From assembly GCA_020850315.1 (NCBI GenBank), contig JADZEY010000087.1, positions 1 to 64,000 on the forward strand: 64,000 nt of DNA, read 5' to 3'. A program made the position numbers and the translations under genes. The stretch is from Armatimonadota bacterium. GTDB lineage: Bacteria > Bacteroidota > Ignavibacteria > OLB7. Below are positions 6,823 to 13,136 of this stretch, piece after piece; the first letter of the stretch is position 1; every line of letters begins with the position of its first letter. A model generated the notes under the pieces. It was not told the DNA's origin and searched no databases. It saw only the letters and a list, made by a program, of their open reading frames with translations.

Positions 6823-8856
6823 ATGAAGCGAACAATACGGAACAGTGGAGCATGGCTTGCAGCATTGCTCCTAACAGGCATAACAATCGCCGGCTGCGAT
6901 GGCGGCAGCACTCCCGCAGCCAAAGGTGGTGCAGCAATGGCTATCACCACCGAGGATAAATTCAAAGCCCCACCGGGTGCCGACCCCAGCGTCACAGCCG
7001 AACTTGGCGGCAACGGCTTTGAAAAGATTGCGGCGGATAGTGGGTGGAAGACCAACACCATGACACCGGATCAATTCAGCCTGATTTCTGATACTAACGC
7101 AGTAAAAGGTGGGCAAGTAACGTTTCACATGAGCGAATTTCCGGCCACGTTCCGTGCTATGGGGAAAGATGAGAATACAGAGGCAACGCGGTTTATCTAC
7201 GGAATGGTCTATGAGAATTTAATAGGTGTAAACCCATTGAATTATGAGTTCCTTCCGGGGTTAGCTTCTCACTGGAAAGTAGGAGCCGATGGGCAAACAT
7301 ATTGGTTCCGTATTGACCCTCGCGCACGTTTTAGTGATGGACATCCCGTTACTACGGAAGATGTTATAGCCACCTATAAACTGGGACTTGATCCAGGCAT
7401 ACTTTCCCCATACACTAACTCTTTCTATGCTGGATTTGATACACCAGTGGTAGTTAGCAAGTATGTTTTCCATGTTCGCTCGAAAGAGAAAAACTGGAAA
7501 AATATGCTGTATTTCGGGGGTATGACAGTTTTGCCGGCTCATGTTATTGGTGGCGTTAAAGGGGAGGAGTATTTAAAAAAATACCAATATGATATGCCAC
7601 CAGGAACAGGTAACTATGTTGTGTTGTCAGAAGACGTAAAGAAAGGGCAGTCTATCACCTTAACGCGGCGTACAAATTATTGGGGGAAAGATGATCCTTT
7701 GAGCCGTGGATCAAATAATTTTGATAAGATTAAAATTCTCATCATTCAAGATGAAAATTTAGCCTATGAAAAATTCCGTGCTGGTGAATTAGATTTCATG
7801 GTTGTAAGCCGAGCACAGTGGTGGCACACCAAATTTAATTTTGATGAAATCAAAAACGGATGGATCCAGAAACGTAAGGTGTTTACAGATGACCCAGTTG
7901 GCTTCGGAGGCCTAGCATTTAATACGCGTAAAGAACCTTTTAGCGACGAACGCATTCGCGAAGCAATTACGCTGTTGTTCAACCGCAAGCAAATTGTTGA
8001 GAAGGTTCTCTACAACGAGTATCTTATCAACTATTCTTACTACCCAAACTCTCCATATGAAAATCCTAATACCCCGCACCTTGATTACAATCCAGAGCGT
8101 GCCGGCCAGTTGTTAGATGAAGCAGGCTACACGCAGCGCAACGCAGAAGGGTTAAGAATGAAAAATGGAAAACCATTTGTGATTGATTTCCCAACCCTAC
8201 AGCAACTGTCGCATGTGATAACCCCAATTGAAGAAGATTTTCGGAAAGCAGGGGTGAAATTAAACATCCGCTATGTTGACGGAGTAACGCAGTTCAAACT
8301 GATGAACGATCGCAATTTTGATATGATCTATACAAGTTGGGGAGGGTTGCTATTTCCCAACCCAATCAGCTCATTCAAAAGCGATCTTGCTGACAAACCC
8401 AACACAAATAATGTGACTGGAATAAAGAACCCAAGAATTGACGCAATATGCGAAGAAGAACAGGTTACTTTTGATCCAGCTAAACGGATTCGTCTGCTTC
8501 AAGAGTTAGATAGCATTCTTGTTGCTTCAAAGCATTACGCACTGAATTGGTATGCGCCATTCAGCCGATATGTTTATTGGAATAAATTTGGCCACCCTCA
8601 ATGGTATATCGGTAAATTAGGCGACTACAAGTCAATTATCGGAAGTTGGTGGTATGATGCTGAAAAAGCAACAAAATTAGCTGAGGCGAAGAAGAGTGGC
8701 GGGAAGTTAGAGGTCGGACCGTTGGAGGTTAAATTCTGGCCTGAGTATAACAAGCAGCATCCAATGGTTATGGTATCCGATTTTAGTGCGGAGAAAAAAC
8801 CAGAAGGAGCAGCTACTGACACTGCAAGCAATAGTACAAAACCATCCATGAAATAA
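6823..8856 (+). CDS. ABC transporter oligopeptide-binding lipoprotein (SBP family 5)
   Basis: A 677-residue extracytoplasmic solute-binding protein of the OppA/DppA class. The N terminus is a lipoprotein signal with lipobox TIAGC and lipidated Cys25. A Gly/Ala linker follows, then the family fold: TRFIYGMVYENLIGV, FRIDPRARFSDGHPVTTEDV, and GGLAFNTRKEPFSDERIREA, the usual signature before the hinge. It should capture peptides (or similar solutes) for the permeases encoded next. It is somewhat longer than typical OppA proteins. Base composition changes inside this gene: the first 90 or so codons are GC-rich like the surroundings, whereas from about 7150 the gene is AT-rich. A strong stem-loop follows the stop codon. 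The family is certain; the ligand is inferred. Confidence 0.93.
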   Translation: MKRTIRNSGAWLAALLLTGITIAGCDGGSTPAAKGGAAMAITTEDKFKAPPGADPSVTAELGGNGFEKIAADSGWKTNTMTPDQFSLISDTNAVKGGQVTFHMSEFPATFRAMGKDENTEATRFIYGMVYENLIGVNPLNYEFLPGLASHWKVGADGQTYWFRIDPRARFSDGHPVTTEDVIATYKLGLDPGILSPYTNSFYAGFDTPVVVSKYVFHVRSKEKNWKNMLYFGGMTVLPAHVIGGVKGEEYLKKYQYDMPPGTGNYVVLSEDVKKGQSITLTRRTNYWGKDDPLSRGSNNFDKIKILIIQDENLAYEKFRAGELDFMVVSRAQWWHTKFNFDEIKNGWIQKRKVFTDDPVGFGGLAFNTRKEPFSDERIREAITLLFNRKQIVEKVLYNEYLINYSYYPNSPYENPNTPHLDYNPERAGQLLDEAGYTQRNAEGLRMKNGKPFVIDFPTLQQLSHVITPIEEDFRKAGVKLNIRYVDGVTQFKLMNDRNFDMIYTSWGGLLFPNPISSFKSDLADKPNTNNVTGIKNPRIDAICEEEQVTFDPAKRIRLLQELDSILVASKHYALNWYAPFSRYVYWNKFGHPQWYIGKLGDYKSIIGSWWYDAEKATKLAEAKKSGGKLEVGPLEVKFWPEYNKQHPMVMVSDFSAEKKPEGAATDTASNSTKPSMK

Positions 8857-8866
8857 CAGTAGAATA

Positions 8867-8914
8867 AAAGAGCATTCGGGCAAGATCGTGTGATATGCTG
8901 CCCGAATGCTCTTT
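8867..8914 (+). promoter_or_regulatory. Intercistronic stem-loop between binding protein and permease genes
   Basis: A perfect 16-bp inverted repeat (arms 8867-8882 and 8899-8914) with a 16-base loop begins 10 bases after the stop at 8856. It lacks a long T run, so it looks like an mRNA-stabilising or attenuating hairpin rather than a full terminator. Such hairpins behind binding-protein genes are known to raise binding protein over permease output. Confidence 0.75.
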
Positions 8915-8941
8915 CTATCCACATAGCCATCTACCTCGCTC

Positions 8942-9970
8942 ATGTTCCAATACTTCATTCGCCGCATCCTGTTAATGATCCCTACCTTTATCGCTTGTAC
9001 GATAGTGGTATTTCTCATTATTGAGATCACACCCGGGGGGCCATTCGATCAGGCTATTATGAGTGCGCAACAGCAGCAACAGGTATCAGAATCAGGGGGA
9101 AGTGGTGGTAGTGATAAAGGAGGACAGCAAATTCCTGAGGAAGCCAAAGAAGCATTGAAAAAATATTTTAATTTAGATAAGCCATTGCCATTACGTTATT
9201 TGCATTGGTTCGGAAACGTGATGACTGGAGACTTCGGTGAATCGTATAAGTATAGCGAGCCAGCAATTACAGTCATTGCATCTCGTTTCCCAGTCTCTAT
9301 CTATTTTGGTGTCATTGGCTTTGTGCTAGGATATGCTGTCTGCATTCCGTTGGGTCTGTATAAAGCGATTAAACACAACTCAGTATTTGATATTAGCTCA
9401 TCATTATTAGTATTTATCGGCTATGCTATCCCAGGTTTCGCATTCGGCGCGCTGCTATTGGCTGTTTTTGGGCGACAGCTTGGCTGGTTCCCAATTGGGG
9501 GGTTCCGCTCCGAAGGTTGGGAATATCTGGGAACATGGGATAAAGTGGTTGACCAGCTGCATCATACGGTATTACCAATTATATGCTATATGATTGGAAG
9601 CTTTGCTACCTTAACAGTCATTATGAAAAATTCTTTAATGGAAAACTTAGGTCAAGATTATGTGCGTACTGCGTTTGCAAAAGGACTAACCGAGCGAAGA
9701 GTGATTTTTGTTCATGCCTTACGAAATTCGCTGATCCCTATTGTAACTGGGCTTGGTCACGCATTTGGCCTGCTGTTAGCTGGTTCACTGCTTATCGAAA
9801 AAACATTCGGTATTCCAGGTATTGGAATGCTTCAGTATGAGACTGTTTTAAACCGTGATTATACAGTTATTATGGCTTTAACTGTTATAGGGGTTACAAT
9901 CCAGCTCACCGGAAATATATTTAGCGACCTTCTGTATGCTACTGTTGATCCTCGCATTCGCTTCCGATAA
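8942..9970 (+). CDS. Oligopeptide ABC transporter permease, OppB/DppB type
   Basis: A 342-residue inner-membrane permease. It opens with FIRRILLMIPTFIACTIVVF, the standard first helix of OppB proteins, followed by a periplasmic segment carrying a low-complexity QQQQQ/GGSGGS stretch at about residues 44-60, which is unusual. The cytoplasmic EAA loop that contacts the ATPases reads DYVRTAFAKGLTERRVIFVHALRNSLIP (shown here to mark the motif; it spans about residues 239-266). The gene is AT-rich compared with the rest of the window. It would form the heterodimeric pore with the next gene product. Confidence 0.93.
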   Translation: MFQYFIRRILLMIPTFIACTIVVFLIIEITPGGPFDQAIMSAQQQQQVSESGGSGGSDKGGQQIPEEAKEALKKYFNLDKPLPLRYLHWFGNVMTGDFGESYKYSEPAITVIASRFPVSIYFGVIGFVLGYAVCIPLGLYKAIKHNSVFDISSSLLVFIGYAIPGFAFGALLLAVFGRQLGWFPIGGFRSEGWEYLGTWDKVVDQLHHTVLPIICYMIGSFATLTVIMKNSLMENLGQDYVRTAFAKGLTERRVIFVHALRNSLIPIVTGLGHAFGLLLAGSLLIEKTFGIPGIGMLQYETVLNRDYTVIMALTVIGVTIQLTGNIFSDLLYATVDPRIRFR

Positions 9971-10009
9971 CCAAAAAGCATAACCCAGCCTTCATTTTGC
10001 CTATAACCT

Positions 10010-11128
10010 ATGGCTTCATCAATAGCAAACAGCACACCAGCGGGTACACCTACGTCACAAGGGAAATCCCTATCCTTGCTGCAACGGCGAATTAAGAAAT
10101 TTAAATCGCTGAAACGAGGATACTATTCTTTTTTGATTGTGCTGGGTTTGTACGCCTTTTCGTTCATTTTATTATTCTTCATTAATAACAAGGCATTGAT
10201 CGTCCACTACAATGGAGAATACTATTTCCCAGTCTTCAAGGAGTATATTGCGGCTAAAACCTTAGGCATGACAGAAGATGGCGAGGCTCCTGTCAATTTT
10301 CGAAAATTACAAGCGAAATTTGAACAAGAGAATGGAGCTAACTGGCTGGTAATGCCGCCATATCCTTGGGATCCAGATGAGCGCGACCAAGAAACCAAGA
10401 TAGTTGATGAAGCTGGCGAGACGGTTAATTACCCATACCCGCCTTCATCAACACACTGGTTAGGTACTGACCCGTCCGGGCGTGATGTTTTTGCTCGTAT
10501 GGCATACGGGTTCCGTGTATCTATCTCTTTTGCTTTACTCCTAACTATTATCAATTACTCTTTGGGCTCTGCTCTTGGTGGCCTTATGGGGTATTATGGT
10601 AAAAAAATAGATCTATTCGGTCAACGCCTGTTAGAGGTTTGGAGTAATATCCCATTTTTCTTCTTGGTCTTGATCGTTAGCTCAATCATTCAGCCAAGTT
10701 TTATTATCCTGATTTTCCTTCTCTCATTATTTGGCTGGATTGGCATGAGCTATCTTATGCGTGGAGAATTTCTCCGAGAAAAAGCTAAGGACTATGTGTC
10801 AGCAGCTATTTCTTTAGGCGCAAGCGATTCCCAGATTATCTTCAAGCATATTCTGCCAAACTCCCTAACTCCAATTATTGCTACGCTCCCTTTTGCAATT
10901 ATTGGCGGGATAAGCACTTTGGTTGGGCTAGATTATTTGGGCTTTGGCCTGCAGGGGAAATTGCCCAGTTGGGGCGAAATGCTCCAAATCGGCAATGACA
11001 ACAAAGAGCATTTATGGCTGCTTCTATCTCCGATTGGGGCGATGTTCATCACACTGCTGTTGATGACCTTCATCGGCGAAGCCCTCCGCGAAGCCTTTGA
11101 TCCTAAGGAGTACTCGCGATTGCGGTAG
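10010..11128 (+). CDS. Oligopeptide ABC transporter permease, OppC/DppC type
   Basis: A 372-residue inner-membrane permease, the partner of the OppB-like protein 39 bases upstream. It has a cytoplasmic N-terminal tail, a first membrane helix near residues 40-62, then a large periplasmic insert of about 90 residues before HWLGTDPSGRDVFARMAYG, the hallmark OppC motif. The EAA loop is KDYVSAAISLGASDSQIIFK. The protein ends LREAFDPKEYSRLR, also typical. Most of the gene is AT-rich, and the composition returns to the host level within roughly its last 30 codons. The following nuclease gene starts within a few bases of its stop. Confidence 0.93.
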   Translation: MASSIANSTPAGTPTSQGKSLSLLQRRIKKFKSLKRGYYSFLIVLGLYAFSFILLFFINNKALIVHYNGEYYFPVFKEYIAAKTLGMTEDGEAPVNFRKLQAKFEQENGANWLVMPPYPWDPDERDQETKIVDEAGETVNYPYPPSSTHWLGTDPSGRDVFARMAYGFRVSISFALLLTIINYSLGSALGGLMGYYGKKIDLFGQRLLEVWSNIPFFFLVLIVSSIIQPSFIILIFLLSLFGWIGMSYLMRGEFLREKAKDYVSAAISLGASDSQIIFKHILPNSLTPIIATLPFAIIGGISTLVGLDYLGFGLQGKLPSWGEMLQIGNDNKEHLWLLLSPIGAMFITLLLMTFIGEALREAFDPKEYSRLR

Positions 11129-11133
11129 GTGCT

Positions 11134-12114
11134 GTGATAAGCGAAAACGCAATGGATTTTGATACCCCATGGAAAGATGTTGTGGAAGGCTATTTCCCAG
11201 AATTTATGGCCTTCTTTTTCCCACAGGCATATGCGGGAATTAATTGGAGCCGTGGGCACGAATTTTTGGATAAGGAGTTCCAGCAAATTATCCGCGAATC
11301 CAAGTTCGGGCGGCGATATGTTGATAAGCTGGTGAAAGTATGGACGCAAGATGACAAGGAATAGTGGGTGCTATTGCATATTGAGGTGCAAGCACAGCAG
11401 GATGCCGATTTTGCTGAGCGGATGTACATCTATAGCAATCGTATTTACGACCGTTATGCACGCCCCGTTGCCAGCCTTGCAGTCTTTACAGATGAATCGG
11501 CCCGGTGGCAACCCGACCGATTTGAATACACGTTGTGGGGATGCCATGTGTTGTTAGAGTTCCCCTCGGTAAAACTTAATGATTATCGCGATCGCGAGCA
11601 GGAATTAGAAAACAGTCGCAATCCTTTCGCTGTGGTCATACAATCACATCTGCGGACTATTGCTTCGCGCAAAAACGCCGACTTGCGATTGCAATGGAAA
11701 ATAGAGCTATCACGTGCTTTATTCCGAAAAGGGTATGCTCGCCAAGAAATCATTGATTTATTACGGTTTATTGATTGGGTTATGATGCTACCAGAAAACC
11801 TTGATAATCATTTCTGGAATACACTTCAACATCTTGATGAGGTAAAAACCATGCCATATCTCACTAGCTTTGAACGCAAAGCCATACAGCGTGGCCACGA
11901 TGAAGGATTGCAGCAGGGTCGTCAGGAAGGCCTGCAACAGGGGCTACAAAAGAGCATTGTAACACTGCTGATTTTTCGCTTCGGTGCATTGCCCGAAACA
12001 ATTACTGCAACAATTACTGCTATTCGCTCAACAGAGCAGCTTGAACAGCTAATGGCATCGGCCCTGAAATCCGAATCATTGGAAGCCTTTACCGCGCAAA
12101 TACCGAATACCTGA
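11134..12114 (+). pseudogene. Rpn/transposase-like PD-(D/E)XK nuclease gene with in-frame amber codon
   Basis: Two stretches in one frame, 11134-11364 and 11365-12114, are separated only by a TAG at 11362-11364; together they read as one protein of about 320 residues. The first part has the family phrases DFDTPWKDVVEGYFPEFMAF, FLDKEFQQ and RYVDKLVKVW, and the second resumes WVLLHIEVQAQ. The likely metal-binding acidic residues (in DKEFQ, VDKLVKV and the EVQ motif) therefore sit on both sides of the stop. The C-terminal part has a Gln/Gly repeat (EGLQQGRQEGLQQGLQ) and a helical end typical of the family. Starts are GTG 11134 or ATG 11152. The gene sits between oppC and oppD, on the operon strand. 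The frame is otherwise intact, so the mutation may be recent, or the stop may be read through. Confidence 0.75.
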
Positions 12115-12158
12115 TTCTACAGCAGAACTCTTCCTTCTACTTCTGTCCGGATACTACA

Positions 12159-13136
12159 TTGACCCAGGAAAAACTTCTCGAAGTCCGTGATCTGCGGACC
12201 TATTTTAAGACTGGCGGCGGCACTGCGAAAGCGGTGGACGGGGTCACGTTCGATATTTTTAAGGATGAAGTCCTTGGTATCGTGGGGGAATCCGGCTCCG
12301 GTAAATCGGTGACGGCACTCTCCTTAATGCGCTTGATCCCGAACCCTCCTGGCGATATCGTTGGTGGCTCCATCACTATGAATGGTAAAGACCTGCTGAA
12401 ATTGTCGTTGCCGGAAATGCGAAAAATGCGTGGCAACGACATCGGCATGATTTTTCAGGAGCCGATGACCTCGCTAAATCCAGTGTTCAAAATTGGATTT
12501 CAGGTGATGGAAACTATCCTGAACCATGAACCAGTGAATAAACAGGAGGCGTTTGACCGTGGGGTGAAAATGCTGGAGCTTGTGGGAATTCCCGATGCGC
12601 GCAAGCGGATGGACGATTATCCGCACCAGTTCAGCGGTGGAATGCGCCAGCGTGTGATGATCGCCATGGCGCTAAGCTGCAACCCGCAGCTGCTGATTGC
12701 CGACGAGCCAACCACTGCCCTTGATGTCACTATCCAAGCTCAGATCCTGGAGCTGATGATGCGGCTAAAAGAGGAACGGAAAGACTCCGCCATTGTGATG
12801 ATTACCCACGACCTTGCTGTGGTTGCCGAAACCTGCAACCGCGTGATTGTGATGTATGGTGGGAAAATTCAAGAGGTTGGGGATGTCCGGCAGATTTTTA
12901 ATAATCCGCTGCACCCCTATACTCAGGGATTGTTGGCTTCTATTCCACACCCGGTAAAAGGGCATCGCGAGCATCGGCTGAAGGCAATCCCAGGAATGGT
13001 GCCGAATATCTTGCAAATGCCTGCTGCCTGTAAATTCAATACCCGCTGCGAGCGCGCCTTCGATAAATGCTTTGCCGAGGAGCCGCCGTTGATTGAAATG
13101 GAGCCAGGGCATTTTGTCCGATGCCATTTGTACTAA
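12159..13136 (+). CDS. Oligopeptide ABC transporter ATP-binding protein, OppD/DppD type
   Basis: A 325-residue cytoplasmic ATPase that energises the peptide permeases. It shows Walker A GESGSGKS (about residues 43-50), the Q-loop segment [14 protein letters not shown], the ABC signature [12 protein letters not shown], Walker [13 protein letters not shown], and the H-loop [11 protein letters not shown]. The C-terminal extension ([16 protein letters not shown] and the Cys-containing end [14 protein letters not shown]) is the oligopeptide-transporter domain, whose cysteines bind an Fe-S cluster in related proteins. The start is TTG 12159; no in-frame ATG or GTG lies near the first conserved strand. 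Base composition here is back to host level. Confidence 0.93.

Follow-up and report, generated by a model that had tools for sequence, protein, structure and literature searches.

The window, the 64,000-nucleotide stretch of DNA that was analyzed, carries an rpn-like frame at positions 11134–12114 of the forward strand, flanked by transporter genes on the same strand. Upstream lies a peptide ABC-transporter permease gene (10010–11128), presumably dppC-like, which ends in TAG while its orthologue in the sister species (genome G001) ends in TAA. Downstream lies an ABC-transporter ATPase gene (12159–13136), which we take to be dppD-like. A promoter scan of positions 11000–12300 returned no forward promoter-like site. 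The first three transporter genes (6823–11128) have a GC content of 42–44%, compared with 55% for the window, and the two ATPase genes behind the rpn-like gene have 52%. The lower GC content of the rpn-like gene (about 46%) does not point to a foreign origin, because the upstream transporter genes are equally low.

Translation of 11134–12114 confirmed the original prediction of a single amber codon in an otherwise intact Rpn-like gene: TAG at 11362–11364 is the sole in-frame internal stop, the frame is open on both sides, and neither a second stop nor a frameshift occurs anywhere in it. The N-terminal part of the rpnL-like frame (11134–11361, starting at GTG 11134 or ATG 11152) contains the conserved D of FDTPWK (11161–11163), FLDKE and the Asp of YVDKL (11323–11325). 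The downstream half begins with TGG, and the remainder of the RpnL-only part (11365–11850) stays open up to an internal start and contains the ExQ motif of HIEVQ (11383–11391). The amber codon occupies a variable column, which holds V, A, S, K, T, C or I in 32 intact relatives and a stop in none of them. Comparison with paralogues in the same genome had been proposed as a check, and an intact copy (G000:C133, 328 aa, 50–51% identity, aligned over residues 4–323) aligns straight through the site of the TAG, in agreement with the claim that no residues are missing at the stop. The stop does separate the predicted active-site motifs, as had been suggested, since the Asp of YVDKL precedes it and the ExQ of HIEVQ follows it. 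All 32 intact relatives share the D, E and Q of these motifs without exception, and the window frame has them too, on opposite sides of the stop. Judged by their homology to intact relatives, both halves of the interrupted frame are coding.

Against the TIGR01784 model, the C-terminal part of the window gene scored 23.5 bits and the paralogue 18.4 bits (cut-off 52.1), and the paralogue scored 13.4 bits against PF04754 (Transposase_31; cut-off 21). Because these scores lie below both cut-offs, we refer to the gene as Rpn-like rather than Rpn. The active-site pattern D...ExQ is shared with the Rpn (YhgA-like, COG5464) nucleases as described in excerpts of Kingston et al. 2017 (PMC5350276), which also report that the substitutions D63A, E82A and Q84K in Escherichia coli RpnA lead to loss of activity. 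In an hhalign comparison, D63 and the E-x-Q of RpnA were paired with the window family at an E-value of 0.0023, with a probability of only 12.5%. From motif spacing together with this weak profile match, the D, E and Q of the window family may tentatively be equated with D63, E82 and Q84 of RpnA.

We examined whether TAG acts as a genuine stop in the source genome. Release factor 1 is present (a prfA match above the cut-off), and no tRNA with anticodon CUA was found among the 43 tRNAs of the genome. When window genes were compared with their G001 counterparts, retaining only frames aligned to their end, 9 of 18 terminated in TAG at the conserved end, and three of these nine have TAA in G001. 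Given these three observations, TAG is an ordinary terminator in this genome. On the same grounds, stop-codon reassignment and the amber suppression listed in the original prediction found no support.

The original prediction had also raised an internal-start two-part protein, with an in-frame GTG at 11368–11370 (forward strand) as the candidate start. The idea of an internal start holds in kind, but for another site. GTG 11368 is preceded by AAGGAA at a distance of 6 nt; its column holds GTG in only 2 of 32 relatives, and it is therefore no ancestral start. The same column reads ATA, ATC or ATT in 23 of the 32, and a product initiated there would be without the catalytic Asp. The conserved site is ATG 11851, a column that holds ATG in 22 and GTG in 10 of the 32 intact relatives, of which 25 come from one genus and thus do not represent 32 independent cases. 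No other column holds a start codon in every one of the 32 sequences. Wherever Val occurs there, the codon is GTG (10 of 10), compared with 196 of 699 Val codons over the whole genes. Five codons upstream of this start, 31 of 32 relatives have GAG, which yields GAGGAG or a similar motif. The Shine-Dalgarno score summed over 33 sequences exceeded all 500 synonymous resamplings. The window itself has a Shine-Dalgarno-like GAGGT (11839–11843, forward strand) 7 nt before ATG 11851, a match that is unremarkable on its own, as a fraction of 0.446 of 500 synonymous resamplings reached the same score. The internal start codon is supported by the paralogue pair and by the Calothrix pair, and in the paralogue AAGGAG lies six bases ahead of the ATG, the same as in E. 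coli rpnA. ATG 11851 has the place and form expected for an RpnS antitoxin start according to Zhong et al. 2023. We consider the stop, its position, the ordinary use of TAG and the conserved internal start to be established.

From this start, an open reading frame of 87 residues (11851–12114, forward strand) encodes a predicted RpnS-like antitoxin with DUF4351-like sequence and four-residue repeats. It scored 24.3 bits against the DUF4351 profile (cut-off 25), and a relative (L070) passed this cut-off with 34.2 bits. The RpnS part of the window gene departs from none of 9 strongly conserved columns, compared with 6 of 28 and 9 of 49 in the upstream parts, where Calothrix relatives depart at only 1 and 4 columns, respectively. 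Apart from the stop, the score of the gene falls in the range seen for distant intact relatives. An AlphaFold2 model of the RpnS part consisted of helices only (pLDDT 78) and gave no significant Foldseek match and only low VIA-align values; the RpnA-S structure (PDB 7TH0) was not among the matches listed. A sequence search of the PDB yielded nothing useful, leaving the RpnS part without a tie to that solved structure. A model of the full-length Calothrix relative was too poor for use (pLDDT 53).

The rpn-like gene is missing from the corresponding place in G001. Homology with the sister species extends to where the upstream transporter gene ends and restarts at 12118, so that the stretch 11129–12117 (forward strand) is absent there, and a short unrelated spacer lies between the two flanking transporter genes. 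No relative of the window gene was found anywhere in genomes G002–G004. The intact paralogue has an orthologue between the same neighbors in G001. Because G001 lacks the gene at this place, the window copy was probably gained in the lineage of the window, or else lost in G001. Gain and loss of rpn genes as single genes without terminal repeats is described in excerpts of Zhong et al. 2023 (PMC10327210). The suggestion of a very recent loss is supported by the lack of a second stop or frameshift; at a neutral divergence of about 0.064 per site, the gene would have acquired a second stop with 95% probability. This value serves as a 95% upper bound on the neutral change since the nonsense event and is well under the synonymous difference between the two sister species at the paralogue (pS 0.41, RpnL part).

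We also surveyed broken copies among relatives of the gene. In a related genus (that of genome G117), at least 42 of 65 genomes have rpn matches, many of them partial. For the decay count, 74 loci that were partial or contained a stop were picked among the matches listed, not every such match being included. After L101 and L105 were left out as belonging to other genera than the references, 72 loci were scored: 2 intact, 12 cut only by contig ends and 58 broken, 41 of these uncensored. Among the matches listed, the RpnS part was intact in 27 of these 41 uncensored copies, and the three successive thirds of RpnL in 4, 11 and 15. Copies with a broken first RpnL third and an intact RpnS outnumbered the reverse by 25 to 2, and the comparison of the last RpnL third with RpnS, which is of similar length, gave 14 to 2, again among the matches listed. 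Of the 27 broken copies with intact RpnS in this set, 26 have retained ATG or GTG as the start codon (the other has ATA), and a Shine-Dalgarno-like motif likewise persists in 26. Many of the copies L100–L112 and L116–L175, which come mostly from the genus of G117, show this pattern of 5' breakage with RpnS retained. L090, a relative of near full length with a single stop near the start and an intact RpnS part, closely parallels the window gene. Several contigs of the G117 genus also end inside rpn copies (L130, L131, L135–L137, L140, L142 and others), which suggests that assembly in this genus is made difficult by rpn genes being multicopy.

These counts suggest that rpn genes may decay from the toxin end. 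The retention of RpnS in broken copies is a pattern and not proof of selection, because some copies have a breakpoint in common with those of related species and do not count as separate events, no control family proved usable, and selection could not be told apart from recent breakage by dN/dS. The transposase family PF00872, taken from the same genus as a control for 5'-biased decay, provided only 10 rows, which is too few. In broken copies, dN/dS was 0.19 for the RpnS part and 0.15 for the RpnL part, against 0.23 and 0.11 in intact pairs, giving no sign that RpnS stays under selection. A bias in nonsense position was also considered across 14 broken loci and set aside: most stops lie before the internal start, but about three quarters of the gene lies there. 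Numerous further inactivating mutations in relatives had been named as evidence that would speak against the original prediction. Such mutations do occur and are common in the related genus, but they do not refute the stop. Since broken copies are common there, the stop in the window is an ordinary event for this family.

We interpret the locus as a recently arisen nonsense allele of a gene-within-a-gene toxin-antitoxin (RpnL/RpnS) in which the antitoxin frame has been spared, and assign this reading a probability of roughly 0.6. RpnL, a PD-(D/E)XK endonuclease, would be truncated at codon 77, ahead of the ExQ part of its active site, and no active nuclease would be made; judged by the motifs, the amber should thus abolish RpnL nuclease. 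ATG 11851 and the 87-residue RpnS-like protein would be untouched by the amber, and from its conservation RpnS should remain translatable. By analogy with related systems, in which RpnS is the antidote, we infer an antitoxin role for this protein. The locus would then encode a predicted antitoxin-like protein without its toxin.

Among the other explanations, we would give about one chance in five to a plain decaying pseudogene, in which the gene was knocked out by the amber and no product, not even RpnS, is still produced or maintained by selection. Broken rpn copies are indeed common in the phylum, the dN/dS values fit such a reading, and the window gene departs from conserved upstream columns more than the Calothrix relatives do. 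However, the frame is fully open past the stop, the RpnS part has retained its start and its conserved columns, and broken copies elsewhere preferentially keep RpnS. Somewhat less probable is a sequencing, assembly or strain-consensus error, with the gene intact in the organism. In favor of such an error, the genome is a draft (4.24 Mb in 138 contigs), changing one codon would be enough to open the whole frame, and the remainder scores like distant intact relatives; yet the gene has no second defect, and 18 neighboring frames end where their G001 counterparts do, in a comparison that retained only frames aligned to their end.

The two remaining explanations, in which the nuclease would survive the amber, appear highly improbable. 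Translation could restart at GTG 11368 and the two pieces assemble, as the AAGGAA adjoining the stop might suggest, but this motif simply corresponds to Lys-Glu codons, the start is poorly conserved, and the product would be without the Asp required in RpnA. Slightly less credible still is suppression or readthrough of the TAG to yield full-length RpnL: the frame is intact on both sides, but the tRNA complement, release factor 1 and the frequent use of TAG as a terminator all stand against it. Some leaky readthrough at a low level may nevertheless occur.

Taken as a young nonsense allele with a spared antitoxin frame, the window copy of this bacterial DNA-cutting defense gene would represent a commonplace, recent loss of function of the kind met many times in the gene family, and by itself it adds to the broken copies of a gene that is often found broken. 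As an apparently clean natural "RpnL off, RpnS on" allele, it may matter a little. On sequence grounds, the comparative data would add a divergent Rpn-like subfamily of the source phylum and of Calothrix to the known range of the intragenic RpnS start. More speculatively, and we think improbably, rpn alleles with a dead toxin and a kept antitoxin could be a selected end state, in which RpnS protects against related RpnL and the window amber marks an early stage. If so, RpnS would provide protection against the RpnL of its own paralogue or against incoming RpnL, and rpn genes would decay from the toxin end while the start, Shine-Dalgarno motif and RpnS frame are kept. A limited literature search, judged by titles, found nothing on amber rpn alleles or on decay from the toxin end.

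The RpnL/RpnS intragenic toxin-antitoxins presented in excerpts of Zhong et al. 2023 (PMC10327210) share with the window gene a C-terminal domain with four-residue repeats, of a putative DUF4351-like kind in the window, that begins just behind an internal start preceded by a ribosome-binding site, as well as single-gene presence or absence between neighbors. Unlike those systems, RpnL in the window is cut by an amber codon, and the family falls under the TIGR01784 and Transposase_31 cut-offs. The same excerpts describe stand-alone RpnS/DUF4351 genes, that is, RpnS without an active RpnL of its own, as would result in the window. Those examples sit downstream of an rpn gene, whereas the window RpnS lies within a dead rpnL. 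L002 and L008, intact orthologues of the two sister species, differ in how many four-residue repeats their RpnS helix contains, and such variation has likewise been reported for Rpn of other species.
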